Of a DNA stretch of 64,000 nt, positions 21,070 through 42,048 are shown in pieces. The notes below the pieces were generated by a model. The model saw nothing but the letters and a program-made list of their open reading frames with translations, had not been told where the DNA came from and did not search any database. The stretch spans positions 36,008,488-36,072,487 of the forward strand of contig OZ024882.1 of the NCBI GenBank assembly GCA_964017185.1, written 5' to 3'. The stretch comes from Rugalucina vietnamica (lineage: Eukaryota > Mollusca > Bivalvia > Lucinida > Lucinidae). The first letter of the stretch is position 1; each line of letters begins with the position of its first letter. Made by a program: the position numbers and the translations under genes.

Positions 21070-21200
21070 CTATGAGTCTTCATAAAACTTTGGAATCTGG
21101 TCCGCAGTAAGAAGAAATCGTTCTACCCCATCTTTTGTGATTGCAGCTAATCGAACCACACCACCGCTGGACCCATCTCTGTTTATAGCTAGCGAAATTG
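21070..21200 (-). CDS. PSMB6: PSMB6 exon 6 (terminal)
   Basis: The acceptor TTTTTTCCAG precedes CAATTTCG. It encodes [14 protein letters not shown] onwards to [10 protein letters not shown] and the TAG stop. It includes the Asp and Ser of the DGSSGG segment that support the catalytic Thr. Confidence 0.95.
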
Positions 21201-24200
21201 CTGGAAAAAAGTGACAAGGTAAACATCAGGAAAACATGTCCGTGCAGTGAATACCCACTCAAACCCCACTTTTATATAGTAAAACTGGGGTATGCTGGCG
21301 TATACCTATTTTTCTTACTTTTGATCTAAAACATAGATTGTGGGTTCTCAATAGAACCACCTCGACAAGGCAGTTCTAACGTGTACCCACAATCTATATT
21401 TTGAGCAAAAATATTATGAATATCAATTTCTAATTTCTAACAAATTTTTTTCCCGCTAAAACTCTCTGTATATTGCATGGACATGTTTTTGTAATAAGTA
21501 AACCTAAGTGAGCAGAGAGTCATGTTGAAGCTCGTGCATTGATAGCCTTCCCATACATTAGGAAAACTTGCCCATGCAATATAGAGAGAATTTTTCTAGT
21601 AGTAAAAACTGAAAATTTCATTGGAAAATTTTTGATGTTTTTAATATTTTTGCTCAAAACATCGATTGTGGGTACACGTTAGAACCGCCTCACCAAGGCG
21701 GTTCTAACAAGTACCCACAATCTATGTTTTGGAGCAAATTACGGAACATAGGTATACCCAGGCAAACTCCAGTTTTGCTATAAATAGTGGGGTATAAGGG
21801 GGTATATATTACATGCACATGTTTTCCTGATGGCTATCAGTTTAAAGGATCTATTTGTTGCTAGAGCTGATTCCTAAATAAGAAAATTCAAGATGGCTAC
21901 CCCATGAATGGCAGGTTTGCTGTAATTTCCTTCTGATAATAAGTCAAATCATTGTGAACAAATGCATGGACCAATCAAAATCCACACTCAGCCAATGAAT
22001 ATTAATGTGGTATAATAAAACTGCTACCACTTCTAAGTGACAAATTCTATTGACACATTCATTTACAGTGAAAATCTTACCATTTGCAATAAATTTAAGA
22101 CATTCATCTTTAGACATTCCAGGTTTATAATTAGCATCAACGTAACCATAGAGATAAGTACTTCCTGATCCACCAATAGCTACAGGCATTCTGGTCCACA
22201 TGCCGCCTAGAGGTATTGTGTACACCTAAAACAGATATGAGAGTCGACATTTTCCTAGTCACTATTATTCTGACTATCACAAAGCAATACTTTGTGCACA
22301 TTTATTTCAGCACTTTTGTTTTTATTATGACCAACATGACTCCAAGCTAAATTCGGAAATTTTCTCGGGACTTTTGTTCCACACATTTTCCATTTCTGAA
22401 TTATTTACGAGGTCTTGTATATTCTTTATGGCTTGTAGGGTTTCTTTATTAGCGAGAATTTTGAATTCATAAGGCAAGAAAAATGCATATTGGTTAAAAT
22501 AAAGTTCTTGCAAAAATTACAAGTTTTTCTTATTTTTTACATGTATCTAATTTTATTTATTGATTTACATGGCCACCTTCCCGTTTATCCAAGCCAGCAA
22601 ACAGTATACCAGCTGATAGATTATCCCGGTTATTGTAACAATAACCTTACCTGGCCACCTTCACATTTATCCCAGCTGGCAACCAGTATACCAGCTGATA
22701 GATTGTCCCGTTTATTGTAACAATAGCCTTACCTGGCCACCTTCTCGTTTATCCCAGCCGGCAACCAGTATACCAGCTGATAGATTGTCCCGGTTATTGT
22801 AACAATTACCTTACCTGGCCACCTTCCCATTTATCCCAGCCAACAACCAGTATACCAGCTGATAGACTGTCCCTGTTATTGTAACAATAGCCTTACCTGG
22901 CCACCTTCTCGTTTATCCCAGCTGGCAACCAGTATACCAGCTGATAGATTGTCCCGGTTATTGTAACAATAGCCTTACCTGGCCACCTTCTCGTTTATCC
23001 CAGCCAGCAACCAGTATACCAGCTGATAGATTGCCCCGGTTATTGTAACAATAGCCTTACCTGGCCACCTTCTCGTTTATCCCAGCTGGCAACCAGTATA
23101 CCAGCTGATAGATTGTCCCTGTTATTGTAACAATAGCCTTACCTGGCCACCTTCCCAGTTATCCCAGCCAGCAACAAGTAAACCAGCTGATAGATTGTCC
23201 CGGTTATTGTAACAATATCCTTACCTAACCACCTTCCCGTTTATCCCAGCCAGCTACCAGTATACCAGCTGATAGATTGTCTCGGTTATTGTATTAATAG
23301 CCTTACCTGGCCACCTTCCCGTTTATCCCAGCCAGCTACCAGTATACCAGCTGATAGATTGCCCCGGTTATTGTAACAATAACCTTACCTGGCCACCTTC
23401 ACGTTTATCCCAGCCAGCAACCAGTATACCAGCTGATAGATTGTCCCTGTTATTGTAACAATAGCCTTACCTGGCCACCTTCCCATTTATCCCAGCCAGC
23501 AACAAGTAAACCAGCTGATAGATTGTCCCGGTTATTGTAACAATTACCTTACCTGGCCACCTTCACATTTATCCCAGCTGGCAACCAGTATACCAGCTGA
23601 TAGATTGTCCCGGTTATTGTAACAATAACCTTACCTGGCCACCTTCACGTTTATCCCACCCGGCAACCAGTATACCAGCTGATAGATTGTCCCAGTTATT
23701 GTAACAATAGCCTTACCTGGCCACCTTCTTGTTTATCCCAGCTGGCAACCAGTATACCAGCTGATAGATTGTCCAGGGATCTCACTAGGATTTTAAAAAC
23801 AGGAGTCCGGGACTCCTGCAAAACAAAAAGTAGGAGTCCCAGACAAAATTTAGGAGTCCCACTATAGAAACTCAATTACAATCCTATTTTTTTTCGACAA
23901 AAAAAATCATAATCATTTCACCTCTTTATAAACAGGGTTTGGGGCTTCCATTTCTTAAGACAAATGTGATATATCTCTGATCAGACGCTGGAGGCGTGAA
24001 ACTTTATAGCATGTCTGATTTGCATTTGGACAACATCGTTAATCTGAGTAATCCTTATCTTGATTGGAGATAATTGATTCTTGGAGCTAATAAACAACAA
24101 AGCCAAGGTAAAGATGGGAATTTTGGGACGTCTCACGGCGAAAAAATCTTGCGTCCCGGGAATCATCTCTTGGCAGAATTATGCGTCCGAGCACGAGTTT

Positions 24201-27200
24201 TCTCGTCCCAGGACGCCGAATCTTGCGTCCTCGAGATCTCTGATTGTCCCGGTTATTGTAACAATAACCTTACCTGGCCACCTTCAAGTTTATCCCAGCT
24301 GGCAACCAGTATACCAGCTGATAGATTGTCCCGGTTATTGTAACAATAGCCTTACCTGGCCACCTTCCCGTTTATCCCAGCCAGCAACCAGTATACCAGC
24401 TGATAGATTGTCCCGGTTATTGTAACAATAGCCTTACCTGGCCACCTTCTCGTTTATCCCAGCCGGCAACCAGTATACCAGCTGATAGATTGTCCCGGTT
24501 ATTGTAACTAGAGGACCATTGGTCCTGTAGCTCACCTGAGAGATTATCACATTGTAAGCTCATGAGATTTAAATTAATTGAGAGTCCACCAATGAAAGTC
24601 TATGCATGAACACTATTGACCCCCGGGGCATGGCCAAATCTGACCCAGGGGCATGACTGGCACAATTTATAATGGGGACTACCAAACATTGCTACATACA
24701 AAATATAGAAGCTCTGGGCCTTTTGGTTTCAGAGAAGAAGTTTTTTTTAGTTTTTCCCATTGTAAGTCTATGGAGACTATCTACCCCCGGGGCGTGGCCA
24801 AATTTGACCCCAGGAGCATGGCTGGCACAATTTATGTAGAGGACCATTAGCCATTGCCACATACAAAATATCAAAGCTGTGTGCCCTGTGGTTTCAGAGA
24901 AGAAGATTTTTGAATTTTTTTCCCATAGCAAGTCTATTGAGACTTTCAACCTGCGGGACCTGGCCAAATTTGACCCCAGGGGCATGAATGGCACAATTTA
25001 TGTAGAGGACCATTAGCCATTGCTACATACCAAATAACAAAGCTGCGGGCCTAGTGGTTTCAGAGAAGAAGATTTTTTTAGTTTTTCCTATTGTAGGTCT
25101 ATGGAGACTATCGACCCCCGGGGCGTGGCCAAATTTGACCCCAGGGACATGATTGGCATAATTTATGTAGAGGACCATTTGCCAATGTCACATACAAAAT
25201 ATCAAAGCTGTGGGCCCTGTGGTTTCAGAGAAGAAGATTTTTGAATTTTTTTCCCATAGTAAGTCTATGGAGACTATCGACCCCCGGGGCGTGGCCAAAT
25301 TTGACCCCAGGGGCATGAATGGCACAATTTATGTAGAGGACCATTAGCCATTGCTACATACCAAATATCAAAGCTGTTGGCCTAGTGGTTTCAGAGAAGA
25401 AGTTTTTTTTAGTTTTTTTCCTATTGTAGGTCTATGGAGTCTATCGACCCCCGGGGCGTAGCCAAAATTGACCCCAGGGGCATGATTGGCACAATTTACG
25501 TAGAGGACCATTAGCCATTGCCACGTACAAAATATCAAAGCTGTGGGCCCTGTGGTTTCAGAGAAGAAGATTTTTTAATTTCTTTTCCCATAGTAAGTCT
25601 ATGGAGACTATCAACCCCCGGGGCGTGGCCAAATTTGACCCCAGGGGCATGAATGGCATAATTTATGTAGAGGACCATTAGCCATTGCTACATACCAAAT
25701 ATCAAAGCTGTGGGCCTAATGGTTTCAGAGAAGAAGATTTTTTTAGTTTTTCCAATTGTAAGTCTATGGAAACTATCCACCCCCGGGGCGTGGCCAAATT
25801 TGACCCCAGGGGCATGGCTGGCACAATTTATGTAGAGGACCATTAGCCATTGCCACATACCAAATATCAAAGCTGTGGGCCCTGTGGTTTCAGAGAAGAA
25901 GATTTTTGAATTTTTTTCCCATAGTAAGTCTATGGAGACTATTGACCCCCGGGGCGTCGCCAAATTTGACCCCAGGGGCATGAATGGCACAATTTATGTA
26001 GAGGACCATTAGCCATTGCTACATACCAAATATCAAAGCTGTGGGCCTAGTGGTTTCAGAGAAGAAGATTTTTTTAGTTTTTCCCATTGTAAGTCTATGG
26101 GACCTATCTGTTGCCATGGAAACCACAATTTTGATACAATCTGCTCCAAAACCTAATGCCATCAATCCCCCAACCCAATTATGGTTCACATTAAATTTGA
26201 TCAAGATCGGCCTACTAGCTTCAGAAATATTCTTCTTTGAAATTGTGGATGGACGACGACGGACGACGACGGACGACGGATGCCTGCCTATCCTATAAGC
26301 TCACCTGTGAGCCTTCGGCTCAGGTGAGCTAACAATAGCCTTACCTGGCCACCTTCTCGTTTATCCCAGCTGGCAACCAGTATACCAGCTGATAGATTGT
26401 CCCGGTTATTGTAACAATAACCTTACCTGGCCACCTTCAAGTTTATCCCAGCTGGCAACCAGTATACCAGCTGATAGATTGTCCCGGTTATTGTAACAAT
26501 AGCCTTACCTGGCCACCTTCCCGTTTATCCCAGCAAGCAACCAGTATACCAGCTGATAGATTGTCCCAGTTATTGTAACAATAGCCTTACCTGGCCACCT
26601 TTCGCTTATCCCAGCCGGCAACCAGTATACCAGCTGATAGATTGTCCCGGTTATTGTAACAATAGCCTTACCTGGCCACCTTCCCGTTTATCCCAGCCAG
26701 CAACCAGTATACCAGCTGATAGATTGTCCCGGTTATTGTAACAATAGCCTTACCTGGCCACCTTCCCGTTTATCCCAGCCGGCAACCAGTATACCAGCTG
26801 ATAGATTGTCCCGGTTATTGTAACAATAGCCTTACCTGGCCACCTTCTCGTTTATCCCAGCCGGCAACCAGTATACCAGCTGATAGATTGTCCCGGTTAT
26901 TGTAACAATAGCCTTACCTGGCCACCTTCTCGTTTATCCCAGCCAGCAACCAGTATACCAGCTGATAGATTGTCCCGGTTATTGTAACAATAGCCTTACC
27001 TGGCCACCTTCTCGTTTATCCCAGCCAGCAACCAGTATACCAGCTGATAGATTGCCCCGGTTATTGTAACAATAGCCTTACCTGGCCACCTTCTCGTTTA
27101 TCCCAGCTGGCAACCAGTATACCAGCTGATAGATTGTCCCTGTTATTGTAACAATAGCCTTACCTGGCCACCTTCCCATTTATCCCAGCCAGCAACAAGT

Positions 27201-30200
27201 AAACCAGCTGATAGATTGTCCCGGTTATTGTAACAATATCCTTACCTAACCACCTTCCCGTTTATCCCAGCCAGCTACCAGTATACCAGCTGATAGATTG
27301 TCTCAGTTATTGTATTAATAGCCTTACCTGGCCACCTTCCCGTTTATCCCAGCTAGCTACCAGTATACCAGCTGATAGATTGCCCCGGTTATTGTAACAA
27401 TAGCCTTACCTGGCCACCTTCCCGTTTATCCCAGCCAGCAACCAGTATACCAGCTGATACATTGTCCCTGTTATTGTAACAATAGCCTTACCTGGCCACC
27501 TTCCCGTTTATCCCAGCCAGCAACAAGTAAACCAGCTGATAGATTGTCCCAGTTATTGTAACAATAGCCTTACCTGGCCACCTTCCCGTTTATCCCAGCC
27601 AGCAACAAGTAAACCAGCTGATAGATTGTCCCGGTTATTGTAACAATAGCCTTACCTGGCCACCTTCCCGTTTATCCCAGCCAGCTACCAGTATACCAGC
27701 TGATAGATTGTCTGGGTTATTGTATTAATAGCCTTACCTGGCCACCTTCCTGTTTATCCCAGCCAGCTACCAGTATACCAGCTGATAGATTGCCCCGGTT
27801 ATTGTAACAATAACCTTACCTGGCCACCTTCACGTTTATCCCTGCCAGCAAGCAGTATACCAGCTGATAGATTGTCCCTGTTATTGTAACAATAGACTTA
27901 CCTGGCCACCTTCCCGTTTATCCCAGCCAGCAACAAGTAAACCAGCTGATAGATTGTCCCGGTTATTGTAACAATAGCCTTACCTGGCCACCTTCCCGTT
28001 TATCCCAGCCAGCTACCAGTATACCAGCTGATAGATTGTCTCGGTTATTGTATTAATAGCCTTACCTGGCCACCTTCCCGTTTATCCCAGCCAGCTACCA
28101 GTATACCAGCTGATAGATTGCCCCGGTTATTGTAACAATAACCTTACCTGGCCACCTTCACGTTTATCCCAGCCAGCAACCAGTATACCAGCTGATAGAT
28201 TGTCCCTGTTATTGTAACAATAGCCTTACCTGGCCACCTTCCCATTTATCCCAGCCAGCAACAAGTAAACCAGCTGATAGATTGTCCCGGTTATTGTAAC
28301 AATTACCTTACCTGGCCACCTTCCCGTTTATCCCAGCCAGCTACCAGTATACCAGCTGATAGATTGCCCCGGTTATTGTAACAATAACCTTACCTGGCCA
28401 CCTTCACGTTTATCCCAGCCAGCAACCAGTATACCAGCTGATAGATTGTCCCGGTTATTGTAACCATAGCCTTACCTTCTCATTTATCCCAGTCGGCAAC
28501 CAGTATACCAGCTGATAGATTGTCCCTATTATTGTAACAATAGCCTTACCTGGCCACCTTCTCATTTATCCCAGCCAGCTACCAGTAAACCAGCTGATAG
28601 ATTGTCCCGGTTATTGTAACAATAGCCTTACCTGGCCACCTTCACGTTTATCCCAGCCGGCAACCAGTATACCAGCTGATAGATTGTCCCAATTATTGAA
28701 ACAAAAGCCTTACCTGGCCACCTTCTCGTTTATCCCAGCCGGCAACCAGTATACCAACTGATAGACTGTCCCGGTTATTGTAACAATAGCCTTACCTGGC
28801 CACCTTCTCGTTTATCCCAGCCAACAACCAGTATACCAGCTGATAGACTGTCCCGGTTATTGTAACAATAGCCTTACCTGGCCACCTTCTCGTTTATCCC
28901 AGCCAACAACCAGTATACCAGCTGATAGACTGTCCCAGTTATTGTAACAATAGCCTTACCTGGCCACCTTCTCGTTTATCCCAGCTGGCAACCAGTATAC
29001 CTGCTGATAGATTGTCCCGGTGATTGTACCAATAGCCTTACCTGGCCACCATCCCATTTATCCCAGCCAGCAACCAGTATACCAGCTGATAGATTGTCAC
29101 AATTATTGTAACAATAGCCTTACCTGGCCACCTTCTCTTTTATCCCAGCCGGCAACCAGTATACCAGCTGACAGATTATCCCGGTTATTGTAACATAGAT
29201 TTCTGAACACACTGGCAGCTGTTTTCACAAGGGGTTCTTCGCCTGTTTCCATTCTGAAACAAACAGATTCAGGCATTACCAAAACAGACTTATGCAATAA
29301 ACAGAGATTTTAACTGGTGTGAAAAATGATAATTTTGAGTTGAAATTTTTTTGCTCAAAACATAGATCCTGGGACAGTACTATGGCGAGCCCTACCTTTA
29401 TATACTGTATTAAAACTGGGATGTACTGGGGTATTTTTTTCTTGTATAGGCTTGTAAGAATGGTTCTGTCCAGACATGACTAAAACATTATTGACTTGGA
29501 TATTAAGCCACTAACAAATCAAACCAAATCATGTATTATCTATGCTGGTGACAGTGAAAACTGACATCGGACAAAGACTGTGCCGCAACATGAGATAAAT
29601 ACGAGCAAACCAACCTTCTGCATATGCGAAAACAAAAGCACAGATCAGATTCGCAGTAACTGCAAAGCTGATCAGTGCCTTTGTTTTCACTACATGAAAA
29701 GTACAATGTCTCTTCTTTTTGAATACAAAAGCCTCTAGCCATCTTCTGTGTATGTACAGGCTGGTTTGTGTAAGGCATGGTCAGATACCACAATGTTGGT
29801 TTTCTCATGATGAACATGTACAGGTCAACCTCATTATAATGCTATCATCCACAGAAACAGACCATATTATAACTTAAGTTCTTCATAACAGACATAATAT
29901 TATAGCAAAATAATAATTTTGGAAGCCATGAGATGGTTGTGTTGTATTGAAAACTGCATTGTAATGAGGCATGTTATAATGAGGTTAAACCATACTATGT
30001 GTAAATCATAACAATTTTGTTATAGTGTAACATTCCAAAATTCTGAAAAACCATCATCTTGAAAGAAATCATTTTAAAAACATGGTAACACAAAGGGAGA
30101 TAAACCACTATAATATTTTTCAGACCTTGACTTGTTCATATATGGATAGCCATTGTATGATCTTAGCACGATCTGGTGTCCCTAACATTAAGAATCTACC

Positions 30201-33200
30201 ACCTTCTGAAAGATGAATCCCTACTCATTTTTGGGGAGAATAACCCCTGAACTAAAGTAAAATGTTTTTAATCACAATAACAATGTTACAAACTAAGGGA
30301 TGGATTTTGCAAACTAAGCAAAGACTGAGTCTAATTCACACCTAGATTTTGAATATTTCTGCAAAGTTATAGCAGAACAAGAAATGAGCTGCCTCGTGGG
30401 AAAACCAACATTGTGGTTTCCAAACAGGTCTGACACAAACCGGCCCGTACAGCTACAGAAGCAGGCTAGAAGCTTGAAATTTCGGATTTAAGTAGAAGAT
30501 GAATTGTACTATCCGAGTAGCGAAAACAAAGGCGCTGATCAGCTTCGCGGTTACCGCGAAGCTGATCTGCGTCTTTGCTTTCGCCTATGCAGATTGTTGG
30601 TTTTCTCAAGTGGCTGCTCAAATCATGTTAATAATTTGGTATCACATTTTATCATTTGAGCCTTAGCATGAGAAAACGAACAGTCTTGGTTTCCGACCAG
30701 GTCTAACACAAACCGGCCTGTACACTCACAGTAAATAGTTTCAGATTTAAGAAGAGGGATTATACTATCCACATAGTAAAAACAAAAGCACTGATCAGCT
30801 ATGCAGTTACTGCACAGCTGATCTGCATCTTTGTTTTTGCAAAAGGCAAAAATCCTGAGGCAGCTCATATATTGGATGATTAAAGGTCATATCTAAAGGT
30901 TTTGATTTTGTTTAACTGAAGTAGACATTGATGAAAGGAACTGATTGCCGAAAACCAAACCAAACTATCATGACTGGTTCCGGAGATAGCTTGATTTGTA
31001 ATCTGGCATTTAATCTCATGAATATTCATTAGTGCCACTATGATGTCATAGAAGCACAGAGGAAATTTTGAATATCATTCAAACAAACAACTGAAACAAA
31101 CAGCTTATCATTTGAAAACAATTACAACTAGAATTGTCAGAGAATCTGACTATAGCCCCGCTTCTCAGCTTTTTTGCAGGGTGAAAAAAACAATGACAAT
31201 CACAAGCTAGATCTCGTCAATATTGATGCACATACAAAATTTGGTCTGATTATGTCAATCCGTTCTCAAGAATAATTAGATATTGAGCGGAAACGAAATT
31301 CTGACCTCAATAAAGGACCATAACTCCGTCAAAATTTTGCGAAAAATGATGGGTAACAATCCCAAGCTAGATCTTGTCAATGATGATGAGCATACAAAAT
31401 CTGGACGGATTTTGTCAATTCGTTCTCAAGATATTGAGCAGAAACAAAATTCTGACGTCAATCAAGGGCTGAAACTTCTTCATAATTTTGCAAAAAATTA
31501 CAGGTAACAATCCCAAGCTAGATCTTGTCAATGTTGATGTGCAGACAAAATTTGGTCAGATTCTGTCAATTCGTTCTCAAGACATTGAGCGGAAACGAAA
31601 TTCTGACGTCAATCAAGGGCCGTAACTCCATCAAAATTTTGCGAAAAATGACGGGTTACGATCCCAAGCTAGATCTTGTCAATGTTGATGTGCATACAAA
31701 ATTTGGTCGTGTTCTGTGAATTCGTTTTCAAGATATTGAGCGGAAACGAAATTCTGAAGACAATCAAGGGCCGTAACTCCGTCAAAATTTTGCGAAAAAT
31801 GAGGGGTAACAATCCCAAGCTAGATCTTGTCAATGTTGATGTGCATACAAAATTTAGTCGGATTCTGTCAATTTGTTCTCAAGATATTGAGCGGAACTAA
31901 AATTCTGACGTCAATCAAGGGCCGTAACTCCGTCAAAGTTTGCGAAAAATGACGGGTAACAATCCCAAGCTACATCTTGTCAACATTGATGCGCATACAA
32001 AATTTGGTCGGATTTTGTCAATTCGTTCTCAAGATATTGAGCAGAAACAAAATTCTGACGTCAATCAAGGGCCGAAACTTCTTCATAATTTTGCGAAAAA
32101 TGACGGGCAACAATCCCAAGCTAGATCTTGTCAATGTTGATGTGCATACAAAATTTGGTCGGATTCTGTCAAATCGTTCTAAAGATATTGAGCGGAAACG
32201 AAATTCTGACGTCAATCAAGGGCCATAACTCCGTCAAAACTTTGCGAAAAATGACAGGTAACAATCCCAAGCTAGATCTTGCCAATGATGATGTGCATAC
32301 AAAATTTAGTTGGATTCTGTCAATTTGTTCTCAAGATATTGAGCGGAAACAAAATTCTGACGTCAATCAAGGGCCGTAACTCTGTCAAAATTTTGAGAAA
32401 AATGACAGGTAACAATCCCAAGCTAAATCTTGTCAATGTTGATGCGCATACAAAATTTGGTCGGATTCTGTCAATTCGTTCTCAAGATATTGAGCGGAAA
32501 CGAAATTCTGACGTCAATCAAGGGCAGTAACTCCGTCAAAATTTTGCGAAAAATGACGGGTAACAATCCCAAGCTAGATCTTGTCAATGTTGGTGTGCAC
32601 ACAAAATTTGGTCAGATTCTGTCAAATCGTTCTCAAGATATTGAGCGGAAACGAAATTTTGGCAATAATGAAGGGTCATCCAAGGGCAATAACTCTTCTG
32701 CAAATTTGGGTAAACTGACATGCATTTATACATAAGTAGATATTGTCAATATTGATGCATATACCAAATTTGGTTTAAGTCTAACAACTGGTTCTCAAGT
32801 TATGTGAGGTAATGGAATGACGGAAGGACGGAATAACAGAACTAGAATTGTCAGAGAATCTGACTATAGCCCCGCTTCTCAGCCTTTGCAGGGTGAAAAA
32901 AACAATGACAGGTAACTATCACAACTAGATCTCGTCAATATTGATGCGCATACAAAATTTGGTCTGATTATGTCAATTTGTTCTCATGATATTGAGCTCA
33001 AACGAAATTCTGACCTCAAAGGCCATAACTCCGTCAAAATTTTGCGAAAAATGACGGGTAACTATTCCAGGCTAGATCTCGTCAATGATGATGTGCATAC
33101 AAAATTTGGACAGATTCTGTCAATTAGTTCTCAAGATATTGAGCGGAAACGAAATTTTGAAGTCAATCAAGGGCCCTAACTCCGTCAAAATTTTGCAAAA

Positions 33201-36200
33201 AATGACGGCTAACAATCCCAAGCTAGATCTTGTCGATGTTGATGTGCATACAAAATTTGGTCAGATTCTGTCAATTTGTTCTCAAGATAGTGAGCGGAAA
33301 CGAAATTCTGACGTCAATCAAGGGCCGTTACTCCATCAAAATTATGCGAAAAATGACAGGTTACAATCCCAAGCTAGATTTTGTCAATGTTGATGTGCAT
33401 ATAAATTTGGTCGGATTCTGTCAATTCGTTCTCAAGATATTGAGCGGAAATGAAATTCTGACGTCAATCAAGGGCCGTAACTCCGTCAAAATTTTGCAAA
33501 AAATGATGGGTAACAATCCTAAGCTAGATCTTGTCAATGTTGACGTGCATACAAAATTTGGTTGGATTCTGTAAATTTGTTCTCAACATATTGAGCGGAA
33601 ATGAAATTCTGACGTTAATCATGGGCCGTAACTCTGTCAAAATTTTGCGAAAAATAACCGGTAACAATCCCAAGCTAGATCTTGTTAATGTTGATGTGCA
33701 TACAAAATTTGGTCGGATTCTGTGAATTCTTTCTCAAGATATTGAGCGGAAAGGAAATTTTGACATCAATCAAGGGCCGTAACTCCGTCAAAATTTTGCA
33801 AAAAATGACAGGTAACGATACCAAGCTAGATCTTGTCAATGTTGATGTGCATACAAAATTAGGTTGGATTCTGTCAATTCCTTCTCAAGCTATTGAGCGG
33901 AAAGGAAATTCTGACGTCAATCAAGGGCCGTAACTCCGTCAAAATTTTGTGAAAAATGACGGGTAACAATCCCAAGCTAGATCTTGTCAATGATGATGTG
34001 CATACAAAATTTGGTTGGATTCTGTCAATTTGTTCTCAAGATATTGAGCGGAAACGAAATTCTGATGTCAATCAAGGGCCGTAACTCCGTCAAAATTTTG
34101 TGAAAAATGACGGGTAACAATCCAAAGCTAGATCTTGTCAATGTTGATGTGCATACAAAATTTGGTCAGATTCTGCCAATTCGTTCTCAAGATATTGAGC
34201 GGAAACGAAATGCTAACGGAATCACGGAATGACGGAACCATGGAATCACGGAACCACGGAAGGACAGGGTGAATCCAGTATAGCCCCACTTTTAGCCCCA
34301 CTTTTTCAAAGCGGGGCTATAATAACGGAATAACAGAATAACGGTATAACGGAACTACGGAAGGACAGGGTGAATCCAGTATAGCCCCCACTTTTTCAAA
34401 GCGGGGCTATAAATAGTAGAAACCATTTACACAGCTTATTGTTTCAGTTTCAAAACTTTTGATGATCTTTTAGGTAAATTATTTTGGCTTTTAATTTTTT
34501 CACCAAGGGAGACCACTCTTACATGAATATACTGTTGTTATTTAAATACGACTCCATATCTTTTGAGCTGATGGGCATATTTGGGTTAAGTTTTTGATAT
34601 ACAAGTCCTAAGAACAAAAGTGATAAGCAGACAAAGAATAAAAAGGTTCCAATAGAACTTTTCTTTATCCCCTTTAACACTGAAGGGTAAAACTTCAGAA
34701 ACAAGTGTGCAGATTCACAATTAATAGATATCACAACCTTACACAGAATTCTATGCATGTAAGTGTTACGTGCAAATTTTCATTACACAGTACCACTCAA
34801 AGAGCAAAATCTGAAAGTTACACCATTTAAACTCTCTTTAAACAATATAAAATTACAGGAAATCACTTAAAATTTAGGACAATTGTATAGCTTTATGTTA
34901 AAATGGTTATTGTTCTTACATAGATGACTATTGTTCCTTGTTATGACATTTATGTACCCTCCCAATTCAAGTTTTTCAATATCGCTTCTGAGGACAATAG
35001 ACCCGTGTAATGAGAAAAAGGGATATTTGCCTATGCGAAAACAAAGGCACAGGTCAGCTGTGCAGTAACCATACAGCTGATCAGCACCATTGTTTTTGCT
35101 TCTTCTTAAAGGGACACTTTTGCTGCCGGGAGGTCAAGAGATTTGTTACCTGTTGAGATTAAAGTGGGCATGACTTGACTACTTGCCCAGGTAACTTTAA
35201 GCCTATTGGAATGCCTGCAAAACTTAATCTGCTGATAAGAGCTGTCAATAATTCCAAAGGTAACTTTCCTCCCTGAAGTATTATCCAATCAGAATTGATT
35301 ATTGCTAGTGATGCTTATTGGACATGTTGGAGAGCTCAGAGAGATGTTGACAGGTCGGACACAAAATGTTGACAGGTCGTTGACAGGTCGGATGTTGACA
35401 GGTCGGACGTTTAGACACAAAAAGTGAGATAAGACACCTAATTCTGCCTTTTGTAGTCCAGGTTCTCCTTTAAATCCAAAATTTCAAGCTTCTAATCTTT
35501 TTCTGTACCGAGGTAAAAGTAGGCAATGATCAGGAAATGGCACAATCAGAAAGAAATTACCACTCCAAAAAAACTGAGGTGTGCATGCTGCTTTGTGTTA
35601 GACCCGGTCGGCAACCCCGAAAACCAATTTTCTTCTGTCACAGCTCAATACTCACGGATAATGTCTGTGCAATAACTCTGTACTATCAATACTTACTTGT
35701 GGAAATTGAGATGGTAATTCACAATGTCGGCCACCGCTTGTGTGTCAGCCGCTGAACCTGACCGACAACAGTAAATATAGTCAGTCACTTTCGTAAGCTT
35801 GTCTGTCACTCGATTGGCAATGTATGCTCTACAAAATTGAAATACAAGAGAATGTGTTTCTGTTTAAAACTTCTGTTATATCAACCACAATACATGATGG
35901 TGATTATAAACATATACAGTCAAACCAAAAATAAGAAAATTATCATTTTTTCCAATTAAAATCAAATTTTCAATTTCTATGAATAAAGAAAATTTCTGTA
36001 TATTGCAAGGATGTTATCGTAAATAAAGAGGAATTACCCTGATGTGGTTCTTGAGTCTGCTCCAATAATGACCCCTCCATCAAATTCAATGGCAGCAATT
36101 GTCGTCTGTAAAGAAAGAAGAAATTCAGCCACTTAATCTCCTTAAACCTGCCAGTATGAAAACAATGTACTTATTTGATGGCTGTAAAAATTTTGTTGGG

Positions 36201-39200
36201 GAAAAATGTATTTTTGCAAAAAAATATTGACTATGTGTGTAGGTAAGAACCACCTCAGCAAGGCCGTTCTAACAAGTACCCACAATTTATTTTCTGGATA
36301 AAAAGGATATTAAGGAAAGTTGTACACCTCGGCATTATGTTTTTTGGCTTGCTGCCAAGGCAGCAAGCCAATATTCAGATGCGATACGGATCTCGATTTC
36401 TATTTATAAAAAGAGGGAATTGTGGGAAGGCTATCCCAGTACGTCATTCCGATACGTCGTCACCGTGTGTGACCCAGTACGTCATTCCGATATTGTGTCA
36501 CCGTATGTGAAAAAAGAGAGTGCATCGTTATGTACTTAAGATTTTGAACCATCATGGAAACATCTCCATGTGGAACTTAACCCCTTCAAACCTATACGCA
36601 ACATAGTCCATACTACATGTATCTCCCTTTGAATTTTCTTTACTGCTTCCAAAGGATCAAACCTTTATATTTTATATATTCTATAGTAAAATTGAGGTTT
36701 GACGGGGTCAAGAGAAAAAATCAATAATTAATGTAATTATGTAATTTAAAAGTCAAAATTGCACAATTCTAACAAAAAACAATATACCTAGAAAATGTGT
36801 TTATGAAACACTATGCCCCCAACTGGTAAGTCACTTTCAAGATGTAAAAATGTCCAAAAAATGACTAAGTTCAAATTGTAAAAAAGTGACAAAAATTAAT
36901 CTGAGGAGTATATCCCAACCACATGCATATCTTCAAAGCATGGTCACAATGTCTGCAAAGTTTCAAAAGTATCGGTATAATATTGTAGGAGGAGTTGCGC
37001 ACACAAGGTACCCTCTATCCATTCACTAAAATGCCCGAAAAAATGACTAAGTTCAAATTGTGAAAAAAATGACAAAAAATAATCCAAGGATTATATCCAA
37101 ACCACATGCATATCTTCAGACCATGACCATAACACATGTAAAGTTTTAAATGAATTGGCATGAAACTGTAGGAGGAGTTGCGCACACAAGGTACCCACTG
37201 CCCATTCACTTTCATTGTGAAAATGCCCGAAAAATGGCTAAGTTCAAATTGCGAAAAAAGTGACAAAAACTAGAAAAAGTGCCTTGAGAGGCACGTATAC
37301 CCCCGGCTGGTAGCACCCTCCAATACCCCCCCATCCCCCCCCCCCCCCCCACCACGGCCCACCACCCAGACATGCTTACTGACACTGATACAATGAACCT
37401 GCATTCCCGAATAAAAGAGAGCAACCTCAACAAGTATTACTTATAAATTTGTATTTTGGGGATGTAGTAGAATGACAGATCTATTTTGGAACAGTATACA
37501 GAACTGACTTGTATACTCAATCTAGGACTTGATCGCGGACATTGAGGGTCAGGTCCTCGATCCTAGATGTAAAGCAGAATGTCATTCTATAATATTTAAA
37601 AAAAAAAAAAAAAGATGTCCTAGATCTTGACTTCTAGCCCCACCCTGGGCACGGACCCTTGAGTCTAATGTCATTAGGAACAAGGCAAACCTTATAGAGT
37701 CCCTTTGGTGCATGTACAAATCATTTCTAAACATGGTGGTAAAGAAAAGTACAGAAAATACAATTTTTAAAGAAGTTCTAGATTTTGACCTCTAGCCCCA
37801 CCCCCCTCACATGAACCCTAGTGTTTGAACCTTACATGGTACCTATGGTCTAAGTATGAATGCTTTCTGACAAGACTTTGTGGATGTCAAGAAAATAGAC
37901 TTACAGAAAATATATCATGGTATTTATCATATTATAAATAAGTCCTAGATTTTGACCTCTAGCCCCACCCCTGGAGAACCGAGCATGAAATATGAATGGA
38001 AACCCTATAGGGTATCTAGGAACTAAATAAGAATACATCCCTATGATTGTTTGTTAAGATATGGACTGAGAGAAGAAACATTAAAATTGTAAATAGCATA
38101 TTTTAAAGGTGACCTAGATTTTGACCTCCAGCCCTACCCCCGGGCAAGGGCCCTGGGATCCGAACTCATGGAAACAAAGCAAACCCTATAGGGTACCTAT
38201 GGTCCAAATATGAATGGTTTCTGACCATTGGTTCATGAGATATACACCTCTAGAGAAACTTTAACCAAAACTTTGACGTAAATTCCACGAACGTTCCGGA
38301 ATTACGAACGAAGAAACGAACTAACTAACTAACTAACTAACTAACATACGAACGGACGAACGGAAAAGCGAAAGCTATATACCCGTCGGCATAAATGCCG
38401 GGGGTATAATAAATCTGAGGATTATATCCAAACCACATGCATATCTTCATAGCATGGTCACAAAATCTGTAAAGTTTCAAGAGAATCGGAATAAGACTGT
38501 AGGAGGAGTTGCGCACACAAGGTACCCACTATCTATTCACTTTATCAAGAATTAAAAAGGGAAATAACTCTCACAGAATGGCCCCTAGCCCCTTAAATTT
38601 ACCTGAAAGAAAAAACACGGGTCCTCTTAATTTTCATATACAAACTACATACCAAATTTCAAGATCCTAGCTCTAATGGTTCCTGACCGAGTGCTCACAT
38701 ATCACAGACAGACAGACTGCACACCACTCAACTCACTGCACGGACAGACCAAAACCAATATGCCCCCTCAACTTCTTCGAAGCTGGGGGCATAATAAACC
38801 ATTATTATATAACTATGAATAGACAGTATTTCAGACAATGCTTTCAGCCCATTGCATATTTTGTCATATTCTATGACCTGGGGTTTTTTCCATTGAATAT
38901 ATGTTACTAAATTTAGAACTCTCTCTCTGTCATTGGAAATGTACATTTATTACTGTCAAGAAGTAATGCCAATGAAGCACAAATGATGTTTATTACTGTT
39001 TAGTTTATTTGAATTTAGACTTAATGTCCCAATGAACATTTTTCAGTCATGTTGGGACTATATGTAAACTGTATACACTAATTCATAGTTATTTTAAAAT
39101 TATGTTTATCATGTTTGTATAAAACGAGTGTTATAATAAAACAATTGTTGACTATTGAGTCATTGAATATTAAGAGATTATTATATGACAATTTTCATAT

Positions 39201-42048
39201 CATACCCCGTATCAACCTGAGACTTCCGTATCAGCCCGAGACTCCCATATCAGCCTGAGGGCCGAAGGCCCGAGGGCTGATATGGGAGTCGAGGGCTGAT
39301 ACGGAAGTCGAGGGTTGATACGGGGTATGATATGAAAATTGCCATATCATGATCTCTTTATCATATATTTTTATTGAAAAAAAAAAAGTGTTTGATACAG
39401 TTCAATGCACAAAATGTTTCCCAACATAATTTCAAGTGGAAAAAAGAAAGAATGAAAAAAAAATTCTGGGGTGTGATATGGGGGTGTGATATGAGTCCAT
39501 ATCTCCCTAGGGAGATATGGATTTTGACAAATTTTGAACTGATACAGCTTTCCCAACATAATTTCAAGTGGAAAAAAGAGAGAATGAAAAAAAATTCTGG
39601 GGTGTGAACCGTGTGATATAGGGGTGTGATATGAGTCCATATCTCCCTAGGGAGATATGAATTTTGACAAATTTTGAACTGATACAGCTTTCGAGATATG
39701 GTGTCCCGATACGTGCATAGGACTTGCGCCTGTATCGCATATGTAAAAAGAACGTATTTTACAGTAAATATATGATAAGATGTGATATCCAACAGAGACT
39801 ACCAATATTGACCTCGGCTTCGCCTTGGTCAATATTGGTAGTCTCTGTTGGATATCACATCATATTCAATGACTCAATAGTCAATAATTGTATATTATTT
39901 TATGATAGGCAAGGTAAATATTTGTAAAATTAAAATTTAGTTCATAAATAGACATTTAATATGTAATTTAAAGAATTTCCCAAGTAATCACAGAGAAGTT
40001 TCCATAATGATTCTTTGAAGCAACTAGCAAGGATTCGGTACACCTTGCTTCAATCTAGGCATTCAAATGCCTTTGTAGTTTCGACAGTAAAATTTTGAAA
40101 AGTCGTGGTTACTGCATGATGATAGGCAATATTGTTGTTTGGATGTTAGCTTTTTTTATAGAAAATGCGGTATGCAAATTATGAGGGCCTAGCAGAGTGA
40201 GTCTTTGCTCCCTGCTCCCTGAAAAAAATTGACCCTTCTCCCCAGCTCCCTGGTTTGTTTTTTTCTCAGCTCCCTGAAAATTTTCTTCTTTTGCTCCCTT
40301 AATCATTCTTTTGCTCCCCAGATCCCTTAGAATATTTGCTAGTGCTCCCCAGCTCCCTGAAAATAAATGGCCATTCTCCCTGAATCTCCGAAACCCCTGG
40401 TAGGACCTCAATTAGTTTGCGCATTTTTGAGACCTCAATTAGTTTGCGCTTTTTTGAGACGTACTCTAATTAACATTTAGGACAGTCTTGTTGGTGCGAA
40501 TAGTGAACATTCAGTCTAGACTGCTTCAATCTGAGTAGTCAAATATCTCTGTAGCTTTATGCCGGCTATACCAAGCATGTGTGAGACGCTGTTTATGGTC
40601 ACAAGCAATAATTGCCCTTTTTCATGAATTGTAAATGGTATATGCAATAATTGCCCTTTTTCATGAATTGTAAATGGTATATGACATTCTATTTTGGTTT
40701 CCAGTAAATACAAAGAAGATACAAAGAATCCGGGTCAACTCTGCTCGGGTCAAGTCGGCCCGGTTCAGCTCGACGGGATCAACTCGGCCTGCTATATTTG
40801 GTATATGGGTATATGGTTGCTGATAGGTAATTTTATATTACACATCGTTCCAAGGCGATATTTCTGTTGTGGTTCTATTTGTTTCTTGTTTTGGAGTCAC
40901 ATTTTTGTGTTGTTTGGACCTTCTGTGCGTTTTCGTATTTTTATTGTTTGGTAACTGAGTGGCCACCTATTGGGAAATGGCTGAGGCTATCCGCACGACG
41001 GTCGTGCCGATAAGCGGCGTTATCCGCACGACGGTCGTGCCGATAAGCGGCGTTATCGGCCCGACCGTCGTGCGGATAGCCAATGCTACAGGTATTGGCT
41101 ATCGGCACGACGGGAGTGTAAGATTTTCTAACAAGCTTACGCATGCATTAAACTATTAATTTGTCATTAAATAAATTAATTATAAGTTTAGCTATTGAAA
41201 TACATTCGAAATTAACATTTTTGTTAATTATGAATAAGAAAACTACTTTGATTTGATTAATTCAGTTAATGTAAACGGAATCACAGTAGATTTCTAACAG
41301 CCAGCGGAGAAAAATATAACCATTGCAAAATTTCTTTAATTGTGTTACTGAAATGTTTCCATACTCCATTGTTAAAATCAAAGGCTGTTTATTCGTTTGG
41401 ATTACCACATTATTTTATTATTTAGGTTTCGATACTCTCATTTACGCATACGCATGACTAATTTTTACAGGTAAATTCACAGGTAAGCCAATTTCAGCAA
41501 AATAACAATTTTGTTAATAATTAAGCAGTAAAAAATCCTGATTGTGTAGGCCTAATATTCTGTTTCAGTTTTGAAGCCAGTGTAATATATTTTTCAACTT
41601 AAAATGTATCCATTTCTAAACATTTTTAACATTTGGATATCGATTTCCCTGTCGTGCGGATAACGCCGCTTATCCGCACGACGGTCGTGCCGATAAGCAG
41701 CGTTATCGGCACGACCGTCGTGCGGATAGCCAGTGTCTTGGGAAATAGCTGCTCACTCTACCTTTCAAAACTGGGCAAGCCTTCCGTTTAAAAGGAAATT
41801 TTATTTGTTGTTTTTTTTCTTGAATGAAATGGTGAAATAATGTCATTTGGCGTGTCACCAGTAAACTATTCAGATTTGAAGTTGAACGCTGCACTGGTGT
41901 GACAGGGGTTCAAGAGAGCGCAAAGTTCCGATCCAAATTTTAGTCTAGTTACCCCAGTTGTTAGTTCTTCAGTTAGCCAATCAGGTCGAGAAAAATCTGA
42001 CGCTTTATCAGCAGAAATTGCCGGCAAAAAATTGCTTGTCATCGCCAT
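21070..42048 (-). CDS. PSMB6: Proteasome subunit beta1 (PSMB6-like), complete, six exons
   Basis: This is the caspase-like catalytic beta1 subunit of the 20S proteasome, an N-terminal threonine hydrolase that cleaves after acidic residues inside the core particle. Exons on the minus strand: 42048-41953, 36105-36038, 35828-35697, 29253-29124, 22225-22081, 21200-21070, joined through GT-AG introns with consistent phases (0, 2, 2, 0, 1). The product has 233 residues (human PSMB6 has 239). A 32-residue propeptide ends Thr-Thr-Gly, then mature Thr1 begins [12 protein letters not shown]17 (in GADSRTT), K33, the GSGS loop and DGSSGG complete the family's catalytic frame. Mature T31 and R45 match constitutive beta1, whereas the immunoproteasome beta1i has V31 and L45 (established knowledge). 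Intron 4 is filled with copies of this gene's own exon 4 end. I saw no clear AATAAA after the stop. Confidence 0.96.
21231..21490. mobile_element. ~260-bp hairpin element in PSMB6 intron 5
   Basis: The ends 'aaacatgtccgtgcagtgaa' and 'attgcatggacatgttttt' are inverted. The inner hairpin pairs 'catagattgtgggttctc' with 'acgtgtacccacaatctat'. A second copy stands 72 bp away in the same intron. Confidence 0.8.
21562..21831. mobile_element. ~260-bp hairpin element in PSMB6 intron 5, second copy
   Basis: The ends are 'aaacttgcccatgcaatata' and 'tattacatgcacatgtttt'. The inner hairpin is nearly perfect: 'gattgtgggtacacgttaga' pairs with 'ctaacaagtacccacaatct' around 'ccgcctcaccaaggcgg'. Confidence 0.8.
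22081..22225 (-). CDS. PSMB6: PSMB6 exon 5
   Basis: Acceptor CTGTTTTAG, donor G/GTAAGA. It encodes [10 protein letters not shown] through [14 protein letters not shown] to CLKFIAN, 145 nt, ending in phase 1. The GSGS loop is the structural element near the active site. Confidence 0.96.
22567..23774 (-). repeat. Exon-derived 82-bp tandem array, block 1 (~14.7 units)
   Basis: Each unit, read on the minus strand, is 72 bp equivalent to the last 24 codons of PSMB6 exon 4 ([13 protein letters not shown]... to ...REGGQ) followed by GTAAGGCTAT, the intron start. The period is 82 bp (for example 22571, 22653, 22735). Copies differ by scattered substitutions, many synonymous relative to the exon. It lies wholly in intron 4, between exon 4 (29124) and exon 5 (22225). 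Confidence 0.95.
23775..24241. mobile_element. hAT-like non-autonomous insertion in the 82-bp array
   Basis: This 467-bp insertion is flanked by the 8-bp duplication GATTGTCC (23767-23774 and 24242-24249), which is part of the array unit. The ends AGGGATCTC and GAGATCTCT are short inverted repeats. An 8-bp target duplication with such ends suggests a hAT-type MITE (established knowledge). Inside, 'aggagtcc' and 'ggactcct' words recur. The minus-strand frame at 23981-24166 is not a gene. Confidence 0.75.
24242..24508 (-). repeat. Exon-derived 82-bp tandem array, block 2 (~3.3 units)
   Basis: The array resumes in the same phase and orientation after the hAT-like insertion, then is broken again by the pearl-like element at 24509. 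Confidence 0.95.
24509..26330 (+). mobile_element. Pearl/HINE-like element with nine ~166-bp core repeats
   Basis: It starts 'tagaggaccattggtcctgt' and 'agctcacctgag', and ends with the hairpin 'agctcacctgtgagcc' and 'ttcggctcaggtgagct'. The core unit carries 'cccccggggcgtggcc', 'aaatttgaccccagg' and 'ggtttcagagaagaag', repeating about every 166 bp from 24600 to 26100. A (GACGACG)n tract at 26251-26280 precedes the 3' hairpin. It is inserted within an 82-bp unit: 'attgtaac' before, 'aacaatagcc' after. Minus-strand frames (24692-24994, 25688-25990, 26019-26204) are repeat translations. Confidence 0.85.
26331..29123 (-). repeat. Exon-derived 82-bp tandem array, block 3 (~34 units), abutting exon 4
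   Basis: This continues without interruption to the real exon 4 donor at 29123. Units group into higher-order patterns: a variant with 'tgtattaatagcc' recurs near 27310, 27722 and 28050 (spacing about 5 and 4 units), followed each time by a 'gattgccccgg' variant. One unit near 28470 lacks 'tggccac'. Read through from exon 4, the first unit gives an in-frame TAA after VRLLLQ, so correct splicing must use the exon-proximal donor. Confidence 0.95.
29124..29253 (-). CDS. PSMB6: PSMB6 exon 4, source of the 82-bp array
   Basis: Acceptor CTGTTTGTTTCAG, donor CAG/GTAAGG. It encodes [20 protein letters not shown] then [18 protein letters not shown] and REGGQ. It can be told from the array copies because it alone has the upstream 58 bp with an acceptor. 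Its own codons (GAT AAT CTG, AAA AGA GAA) differ from the array consensus. Confidence 0.97.
29295..29440. repeat. Partial ~260-bp hairpin element
   Basis: It contains 'ttttgctcaaaacatagat' and 'tatactgtattaaaactggg', diagnostic of the family. The hairpin core is mostly lost. Confidence 0.5.
29602..29811 (+). mobile_element. MITE, 'gagccgc' family, in PSMB6 intron 3
   Basis: It carries 'tctgcatatgcgaaaacaaa', the palindrome 'agattcgcagtaactgcaaa' and a right end near 'ggttttctcatg'. The terminal heptamers are degenerate. Confidence 0.75.
29820..30385. other. No gene recognised (PSMB6 intron 3)
   Basis: AT-rich intronic sequence. 'ctcattataatg' and 'cattataatgagg' form a loose inverted pair (29830 and 29975). 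Confidence 0.5.
30386..30619 (-). mobile_element. MITE, 'gagccgc' family
   Basis: The ends are 'gagctgcctcgtgggaaaac' and 'ttttctcaagtggctgctc'. The central hairpin 'cagcttcgcggttaccgcga' with 'agctgatct' is perfect over about 30 bp. Confidence 0.85.
30658..30866 (-). mobile_element. MITE, 'gagccgc' family, adjacent copy
   Basis: This lies only 38 bp from the previous copy in the same orientation. Ends 'gagccttagcatgagaaaac' and 'cctgaggcagctc', central palindrome 'cagctatgcagttactgcac'. Confidence 0.8.
31127..34412 (+). mobile_element. Pearl-like composite with ~151-bp core repeats
   Basis: Two 5' ends are present ('aactagaattgtcagagaat' with 'tatagccccgcttctcagc' at 31128 and 32840). There are two 3' ends ('ccactttttcaaagcggggc' at about 34300 and 34388), forming 'tatagcccc...ggggctata' inverted termini. 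Roughly 19 core units of 151 bp ('attctgacgtcaatcaaggg', 'aatcccaagctagatcttgt', 'tctcaagatattgagcgga') lie between. A degenerate (ACGGAA)n stretch precedes each 3' end. The series of 60-114-residue open frames here are phase-shifted readings of one repeat and are not genes. Located in PSMB6 intron 3. Confidence 0.8.
34413..34985. other. No gene recognised (PSMB6 intron 3)
   Basis: The minus-strand frame at 34519-34758 has a hydrophobic stretch but no known domain or splice context, and it lies inside the intron. Confidence 0.5.
34990..35110 (+). repeat. MITE fragment, 'gagccgc' family
   Basis: It contains 'gcctatgcgaaaacaaaggc' and 'cagctgtgcagtaac' with 'cagctgatcagca'. A second fragment (35455-35645) with 'aaatttcaagcttctaatct' suggests the copy was split by the 35110-35450 sequence. 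Confidence 0.6.
35697..35828 (-). CDS. PSMB6: PSMB6 exon 3
   Basis: Acceptor TTTTGTAG, donor AA/GTAAGT. It encodes [11 protein letters not shown] through [17 protein letters not shown] to NYHLNFH. It contains catalytic Lys33 and the S1-pocket residues T31 and R45. Confidence 0.97.
36038..36105 (-). CDS. PSMB6: PSMB6 exon 2, begins with catalytic Thr1
   Basis: Acceptor CTTTACAG, donor GG/GTAATT. It encodes [20 protein letters not shown] and TSG. The first codon is the threonine that becomes the active-site N terminus after autocatalytic cleavage. D17 is in this exon. Confidence 0.97.
36205..36305. repeat. Partial ~260-bp hairpin element (PSMB6 intron 1)
   Basis: It carries 'aagaaccacctcagcaaggc' with 'cgttctaacaagtacccaca', the family's hairpin with decayed arms. 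Confidence 0.6.
36808..38795 (+). mobile_element. Pearl-like element with ~182-bp cores, split by another element
   Basis: It starts 'ctatgcccccaactgg' and ends 'cgaagctgggggcataat'. Core units marked by 'ggagttgcgcacacaaggta' occur near 36991, 37172 and 38505. The last is displaced by the 37268-38411 insertion. Related in ends to 7985-8672. Confidence 0.7.
37268..38411 (+). mobile_element. Pearl-like element nested in 36808-38795
   Basis: It starts 'tagaaaaagtgccttgagag' and 'acgtatacccccggctgg', and ends 'catttatgccgacggg' inverted as 'cggcataaatgccgggggta'. Core units carry 'agattttgacctctagcccc' near 37625, 37785, 37950 and 38110. (ACTA)n and ACGAACG tracts (38310-38360) precede the 3' hairpin. 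The deletion copy at 49869-50088 keeps only both ends. Confidence 0.75.
38800..39130. other. No gene recognised (PSMB6 intron 1)
   Basis: AT-rich intron sequence. At 39000-39055 'gacttaatgtcccaatgaac' and 'cagtcatgttgggac' resemble the 3' body of the SINE type at 5430. Confidence 0.4.
39131..39900. mobile_element. Foldback element with two large internal hairpins
   Basis: The outer ends 'aattgttgactattgagtca' (39142) and 'tgactcaatagtcaataatt' (39869) are inverted. The first hairpin is at 39195-39335, with arms running from 'cataccccgtatcaacc' to 'ggttgatacggggtatg'. The second hairpin is at 39786-39858 (gatatccaacagagactacc and its inverse). A ~125-bp unit with 'ggagatatg' and 'ttcccaacataatttcaag' is repeated twice between them. 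The frames at 39361-39832 follow that duplication. Confidence 0.75.
40180..40410 (-). repeat. Degenerate 'gctccctg' repeat
   Basis: About eight 'gctcccc' or 'ctccctgaaa' words occur at irregular spacing, giving the low-complexity frame at 40109-40411 (minus). This looks like a dispersed element rather than coding sequence. Downstream, 40606-40682 is a 39-bp direct duplication ('caataattgccctttttcat' start). Confidence 0.6.
40820..40982 (+). repeat. Family X copy, interrupted by the hairpin cluster
   Basis: It matches 45640-45790 ('ccaaggcgatatttctgt', 'gtaactgagtggccacctat'). The copy resumes at 41739 with 'tgggaaatagctgctcactc'. Confidence 0.65.
40983..41738. mobile_element. Element ended by GC-rich hairpin clusters
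   Basis: At 40985-41115 the palindrome GCACGACGGTCGTGC, or its halves, is repeated with 'cgataagcggcgttatc' linkers. A matching cluster at 41650-41731 closes the element in inverted orientation ('gcggatagccagtg'). The interior (41120-41645) is AT-rich with no frame. The flanks 'tgggaaatggct' (40971-40982) and 'tgggaaatagct' (41739-41750) look like a target duplication with one mismatch, and family X reads through once the element is removed. Confidence 0.75.
41953..42048 (-). CDS. PSMB6: PSMB6 exon 1 (propeptide)
   Basis: It starts at ATG (42048) and encodes [19 protein letters not shown] then [13 protein letters not shown], ending at donor GGG/GTAACT. 'PDW...E.(S/T)TG' matches the end of the animal beta1 propeptide, and the join to TTIAAIEF at exon 2 recreates the Gly-Thr autoprocessing site. 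A second in-frame ATG lies two codons on; I chose the first. No TATA box can be assigned with confidence. Confidence 0.93.

Follow-up and report, generated by a model that had tools for sequence, protein, structure and literature searches.

Minisatellites that arise from exon-intron boundaries are known as 'mirages' from the amphioxus globin genes BflGb6 and BflGb9, with Adh3 cited as another instance, and are reported not to disturb regular splicing there (PMC3087553). Their units measure 10-160 bp and in many cases feature AG/GT splice signals, and a homogenised centre is found next to a diverged edge; in BflGb9 it is the 3' exon boundary that has been duplicated (PMC3087553). Unstable length, both somatically and from one haplotype to another, also counts among the features of mirages. 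In addition, intron 18 of human ABCA7 harbours a 25-bp variable number tandem repeat (VNTR) that includes the exon 18 donor (PMC5954066), and the minisatellite of IFI6 (6-16, G1P3) comprises multiple splice donors, with two downstream repeat units being used as donors (PMC4526556). Tandem duplication of AGGT segments has furthermore been described as a route of intron gain for ATP2A1, potato RdRp and fission yeast 24-bp repeats (PMC4974935, PMC3443670), while variable repeats at human exon-intron boundaries can form novel introns (PMC2812944). Here, we describe a boundary array of this kind in a 64-kb window (the whole stretch of DNA analysed, 64,000 nucleotides of contig OZ024882.1 of the bivalve Rugalucina vietnamica), where intron 4 of the gene for the catalytic proteasome subunit PSMB6 (proteasome beta1) holds 52 tandem units derived from its own exon 4/intron 4 boundary. 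The author of the initial annotation was aware of no published case; the amphioxus mirages, the ABCA7 VNTR and the IFI6 minisatellite precede it.

The repeat unit of about 82 bp consists of 72 bp (24 codons) from the 3' end of exon 4 followed by GTAAGGCTAT, and the end of exon 4 precedes the first intronic unit by exactly 82 bp. Hence, the exon itself represents the in-phase first copy, which argues for growth of the array in place. Tandem Repeats Finder reported 82-bp arrays at 22565-23774, 24242-24508 and 26330-29195, and counting unit by unit gave 52 units in the intron, to which the copy in exon 4 comes as an extra one. Starting from exon 4, these comprise 34 units, one split by a HINE-like (non-autonomous Helentron-type) element, two further units, one split by a second element of about 467 bp, 13 units and a degenerate terminal unit that has lost its donor (CAT/GTAAAT). 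A column-by-column alignment was made of 48 of the 52, among them the HINE-split unit via its longer part; excluded from it were two units of 74 bp and 81 bp, the one cut by the ~467-bp element and the degenerate one at the terminus. The aligned units share a mean pairwise identity of 93% (84-100%) and are on average 92% identical to exon 4. Given the homology of the units to exon 4, whose phase they carry on, the array was seeded by the exon 4/intron 4 boundary. The copy number of about 52, the composition of the unit and its origin from an exon boundary were thus correctly recognised in the initial annotation, whereas the array does not fill the intron as had been stated: it covers about 4.25 kb of 6,898 bp and is interrupted by the two mobile elements. 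The probe sequence GGTGGCCAGGTAAGG, with at most one mismatch allowed, occurs 49 times in the window, always on the minus strand and either at the end of exon 4 or in intron 4, as compared to 0 occurrences in 100 shuffles; no further copy of the unit was present outside exon 4/intron 4 on either strand of the window. A scan of the 33-bp unit junction against viral contigs yielded 0 matches, which says little.

In our view, the array is probably a 'mirage' minisatellite of the PSMB6 exon 4/intron 4 boundary, which would be neutral and tolerated through exon definition. Its unit spans an exon-intron boundary (72 + 10 bp) and sits in the parent gene beside the authentic boundary, its length of 82 bp falls inside the range reported for mirages, splice signals are present in many units (51/52), and a homogenised interior is accompanied by a diverged edge, including the degenerate terminal unit. 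As in BflGb9, a 3' exon boundary is concerned. On the other hand, 52 intronic units at PSMB6 compare to 6 and 3 in two BflGb6 haplotypes (PMC3087553), and unlike the amphioxus mirages the array belongs to a mollusc and a proteasome subunit gene, contains nested mobile elements and is known here from one sequence. With respect to its emergence, the exon 4/intron 4 boundary would have been tandemly duplicated first, perhaps guided by a short likeness between CTATGTTACAA in the exon and GGCTAT in the early intron; the junction between units reads GGCTAT/TGTTACAA, and the corresponding place in the exon reads CTATGTTACAA. Subsequent amplification to about 52 intronic copies may have proceeded via unequal exchange or slippage, the two mobile elements inserted later and cut the array, and the copies would now be drifting as non-coding DNA. 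Since the terminal unit deviates behind GTAA, the far end of the array does not reveal which intron sequence originally followed the donor.

When the flanks of the two mobile elements are rejoined, exactly 82 bp are restored at each insertion. For the ~467-bp element, the 8-bp target duplication suggests a hAT-type transposon. The larger element resembles the HINEs of oyster and mite in its TT site, its central repeats of about 166 bp (detected by Tandem Repeats Finder), its inverted repeats near both ends and its 3' palindrome (PMC7492417, PMC4067079). By eye, the inverted repeats measure 12 bp and AGGACC-AAT-GGTCCT stands ahead of CTAG. The element agrees with described HINEs apart from how far its 3' inverted repeat is spaced from the end, namely ~21 nt as opposed to 38-60 bp in mite HINEs (PMC7492417, PMC4067079). 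As a later insertion it is not the source of the 82-bp unit, and the notion that the 166-bp period represents a doubled 82 bp was rejected, given that this period sits inside the inserted element. Sequences that in part resemble the ends of this element also lie at 19199-19048, 48787-48713 and 47287-47253, as expected for a repeated family.

The exact empty sites also bear on the explanation that a satellite spread through the genome, or an error of assembly, lies behind the array in place of local growth. A misassembled mirage in a genome draft is on record, and it is above all the number of copies that might be mistaken. Nevertheless, the exact phase with exon 4 as first copy, the share of PSMB6's own coding sequence in the unit (72 of 82 bp), the confinement of all copies to one place within the window and, as regards misassembly, the mutual differences among units together with the two 82-bp empty sites render this explanation very unlikely.

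Table 1. Coordinates of the PSMB6 gene, the 82-bp array and associated features in the window (candidate and class assignments as qualified in the text).
Feature	Position	Strand	Remarks
PSMB6 gene, coding part	21070..42048	-	six exons; Pfam PF00227; 90% to Mya arenaria PSB6-like
PSMB6 exons 1-6	42048-41953, 36105-36038, 35828-35697, 29253-29124, 22225-22081, 21200-21070	-	
Exon 4	29124..29253	-	130 bp; last 72 bp (29195-29124) are the in-phase first repeat copy
True 5' splice site of exon 4 with the first 10 bases of intron 4	29114..29123	-	GTAAGGCTAT; belongs to the repeated unit
34 intronic units	26335..29113	-	two of deviating length (74 and 81 bp)
HINE-like (non-autonomous Helentron-type) insertion	24508..26330	-	1,823 bp; central 166-bp tandem repeats; one unit split between TT and TT
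Remainder of HINE-split unit, two whole units and first 22 bp of next unit	24242..24507	-	
Second insertion	23775..24241	-	~467 bp; GGACAATC duplicated on either side (8 bp); inverted repeats at the termini, imperfect (AGAGATCTC / AGGGATCTC)
Remainder of unit cut by second insertion, 13 units and degenerate terminal unit	22565..23774	-	
Candidate cassette exon	23717..23815	-	99 nt; acceptor AG 23817-23816 from ~467-bp insertion; array donor GT 23716-23715; prediction only

The variation among the 48 aligned units conforms to a non-coding fate of the copies. Among 38 distinct exonic changes, 12 are synonymous, with about 9.5 being expected without coding constraint; five units contain a stop codon, and the exon 4 peptide is still encoded by eight. 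Three sites separate exon 4 from all 48 units and each of these differences is synonymous, the chance of which is ~0.02 by simple arithmetic from the counts and post hoc; at one of them (column 17) exon 4 and the terminal unit have the base in common. The simplest reading is that exon 4 was kept under coding constraint while the array drifted. The idea that gene conversion draws on the array to renew exon 4 was considered in view of the eight peptide-identical units and rejected on account of the three differences between the exon and all 48, an argument that is not absolute, with column 17 being common to the terminal unit. Moreover, eleven pairs of units are identical, and the consecutive units at 28301, 28219 and 28137 recur as those at 23542, 23460 and 23378, while the first three units average 1.67 private variants each as opposed to 0.33 in the remainder. 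Copying in blocks and divergence at the edge are both typical of minisatellites.

In the intron, 51 of the 52 units retain an AG/GTAAG donor, namely 47 with CAGGTAAGG, which is the same as at the true donor, two with TAGGTAAGG, one with AAGGTAAGG and one with CAGGTAAGT. When U1 pairing energies were calculated for an 11-base stretch at every site, the true exon 4 donor turned out to be the gene's best match at -11.5, while the remaining four true donors range from -6.0 to -8.0; the same value is attained by 48 array sites and by no other site in the gene, whereas first-order random versions of the array contain 1.14 such sites on average and 7 at most (n=100). The dozens of near-consensus donors postulated in the initial annotation therefore exist and are as good as the true one, and its donor GT at 29123, exon 5 acceptor AG at 22227-22226 and TAA after six codons were likewise placed correctly. 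Close to this strength are also two sites near both ends of the HINE-like element, at 26304 and 24535 (CAG/GTGAGC, -11.1), and common elements of this sort may carry donor sites into introns.

As had been anticipated, joining of an array donor to exon 5 truncates the subunit: for 51/51 donors the reading frame comprises 142 + 6 residues before TAA, i.e., 148 aa. A stop codon with an exon junction downstream is a trigger of nonsense-mediated decay. Use of a further donor would lengthen exon 4 by at least 82 nt, introduce the TAA six codons in and, because an exon junction lies downstream of the stop, probably expose the transcript to this decay. In IFI6, whose minisatellite unit reportedly measures about 12 bp, the products of the used donors reportedly differ in a frame-compatible manner, in contrast to the truncation that follows from every array donor at PSMB6. 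The ABCA7 VNTR, like the PSMB6 array, lies at an exon end and includes the donor of this exon, and splicing at its next donor leaves one unit in the transcript with a shift of the frame; each of its units starts at GT and thus with a donor, and PMC5954066 does not describe exon sequence as part of it. At PSMB6, every array donor stands in an exonic context because 72 of the 82 bp are coding exon. A similar comparison holds for the AGGT duplications, in which an AG/GT segment was also tandemly duplicated and generated new potential splice sites (PMC4974935, PMC3443670). There, a new intron emerges inside an exon, whereas at PSMB6 it is a pre-existing boundary that has multiplied within a pre-existing intron, which does not imply any new productive intron.

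Tolerance of so many donors would result from exon definition, by which exon 4 (130 nt, flanked by introns 3 and 4 of 6,443 and 6,898 bp) is presumably recognised: its acceptor would pair with the nearest downstream donor, the one at 29123. In human data, the upstream donor is favoured where donors are near-equal and the exon lies between long introns, and in five minigenes with identical CAG/guaagu donors it was used exclusively under exon definition (PMC9225289). By analogy, the strong preference for the exon-proximal donor that the initial annotation considered is the expected behaviour for exon definition with near-equal donors. In addition, the copied donors are mostly devoid of a partner because the AGs of the array make poor acceptors, with at most 10 of 17 pyrimidines upstream (263 AGs) as compared to 12-14 at the five true acceptors; the exception is provided by the ~467-bp element.

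Several points weigh against a silent array. Across alternative 5' splice site events as a whole, with strength disregarded, ~60% favour the downstream donor, as do short-intron settings in general (PMC9225289); moreover, the exon-definition data stem from human cells, not from molluscs, and the choice of donor at PSMB6 exon 4 is predicted from sequence. In ABCA7, the donor of the second repeat is used and expansion of the repeat raises skipping of exon 19 (PMC5954066), from which it follows that boundary arrays are not always silent. Furthermore, the donor-side columns 61-77 of the aligned units vary in only 6 of 816 cells, as opposed to 146/2,928 and 17/192 elsewhere, and out of 82 circular windows only 2 are as low when cells are counted, and 5 when distinct changes are. 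Conservation of the donor as a sign of function was nonetheless rejected, since the strip of 17 columns was picked post hoc and the 9 donor bases by themselves do not stand out, with equally low variation in 10/82 windows by cells and 21/82 by distinct changes; it remains a hint only.

Alternatively, the array may be in use, with regulated unproductive splicing (exon 4 extended by at least 82 nt, or exon 5 skipped) tuning the dose of the catalytic subunit. The retention of AG/GTAAG in 51/52 units, the somewhat lower variation of the donor strip and the identical 148-aa stop behind every array donor are in line with such a function, and the comparable ABCA7 VNTR gives rise to unit retention, which is independent of repeat length, while its length accompanies more exon 19 skipping (PMC5954066). 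We consider dose tuning unlikely, as the post hoc signal of conservation is a weak one, the units otherwise mutate like non-coding DNA, exon definition with identical donors favours the first one (PMC9225289) and amphioxus mirages are reported as leaving splicing undisturbed (PMC3087553).

A different kind of use concerns the acceptor contributed by the ~467-bp element. Its AG is preceded by 14 of 17 pyrimidines and reads CAG, equal to the gene's best true acceptors (those of exons 2 and 6), and together with an array donor of the same sequence as the true donor of exon 4 it delimits a candidate cassette of 99 nt that is stop-free and in frame 0-0. If spliced into some PSMB6 transcripts, this proto-exon would add 33 residues, which partly repeat the exon 4 peptide. 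That a mirage unit is used as an exon once a suitable acceptor is present has been proposed for amphioxus (PMC3087553). On the contrary, acceptor-like sites are not rarer outside intron 4 (16 in intron 1, 14 in intron 3 and 12 in intron 4), and in-frame open acceptor-donor pairs amount to 1/10 in intron 4 and 0/4 in intron 1, two pairs of intron 3 having been left out of this count. Chance is therefore a fair explanation of the cassette, the 33 inserted residues would probably spoil the fold, and actual inclusion in transcripts appears improbable. The broader idea that a new exon is emerging here, for which the mirage array multiplied the gene's strongest donor and a mobile element brought the acceptor of an in-frame, stop-free cassette, is predicted from sequence features and to be regarded as rather doubtful. 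If it were true, the cassette would have arisen along the route from mirage to exon that was suggested for amphioxus, a transposon having brought the acceptor, and this transposon-made candidate exon constitutes the open novelty of the locus.

The host gene itself is intact. Its complete coding sequence of 702 nt specifies 233 aa, all introns are of the GT-AG type, the protein matches PF00227 (Pfam), and PSMB6 is the top match of the exon 4-5 portion among solved structures. The PSB6-like protein of Mya arenaria (90% identity) is the closest among the matches listed (best 120 of 4,399), none of which is identical to the protein encoded here. Intron 3 contains two blocks of 151-bp tandem repeats (31278-34218), which matched no PSMB6 exon at E values up to 1; the neighbouring introns 3 and 4 thus each carry a long tandem array, and these arrays are unlike. 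Elsewhere in the window, 50781-54791 and 54792-58802 are duplicates in head-to-tail arrangement, offset by 4,011 bp and with 3 mismatches in 4,013 bases, located where the comparison ran on. This duplication is either very recent or an assembly artefact, and no Pfam match was obtained for its open reading frames (two tried).

As a probable mirage, the PSMB6 array extends this class of minisatellites from amphioxus to a mollusc and to an essential catalytic subunit, with a copy number well above that of the amphioxus globin examples (PMC3087553). It is an unusually long mirage in a lineage that is new as far as PMC3087553 goes, for which priority is not claimed. Moreover, the locus constitutes a natural duplicated-donor experiment, in which more than 50 near-equal 5' splice sites, nearly all of them behind the same 72 exon nucleotides, face one upstream acceptor; the donor predicted to be used is the first under exon definition and the last under an intron-proximity rule. 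In addition, the birth of an exon from a tandem repeat and a transposon can be put to a concrete test at this locus.

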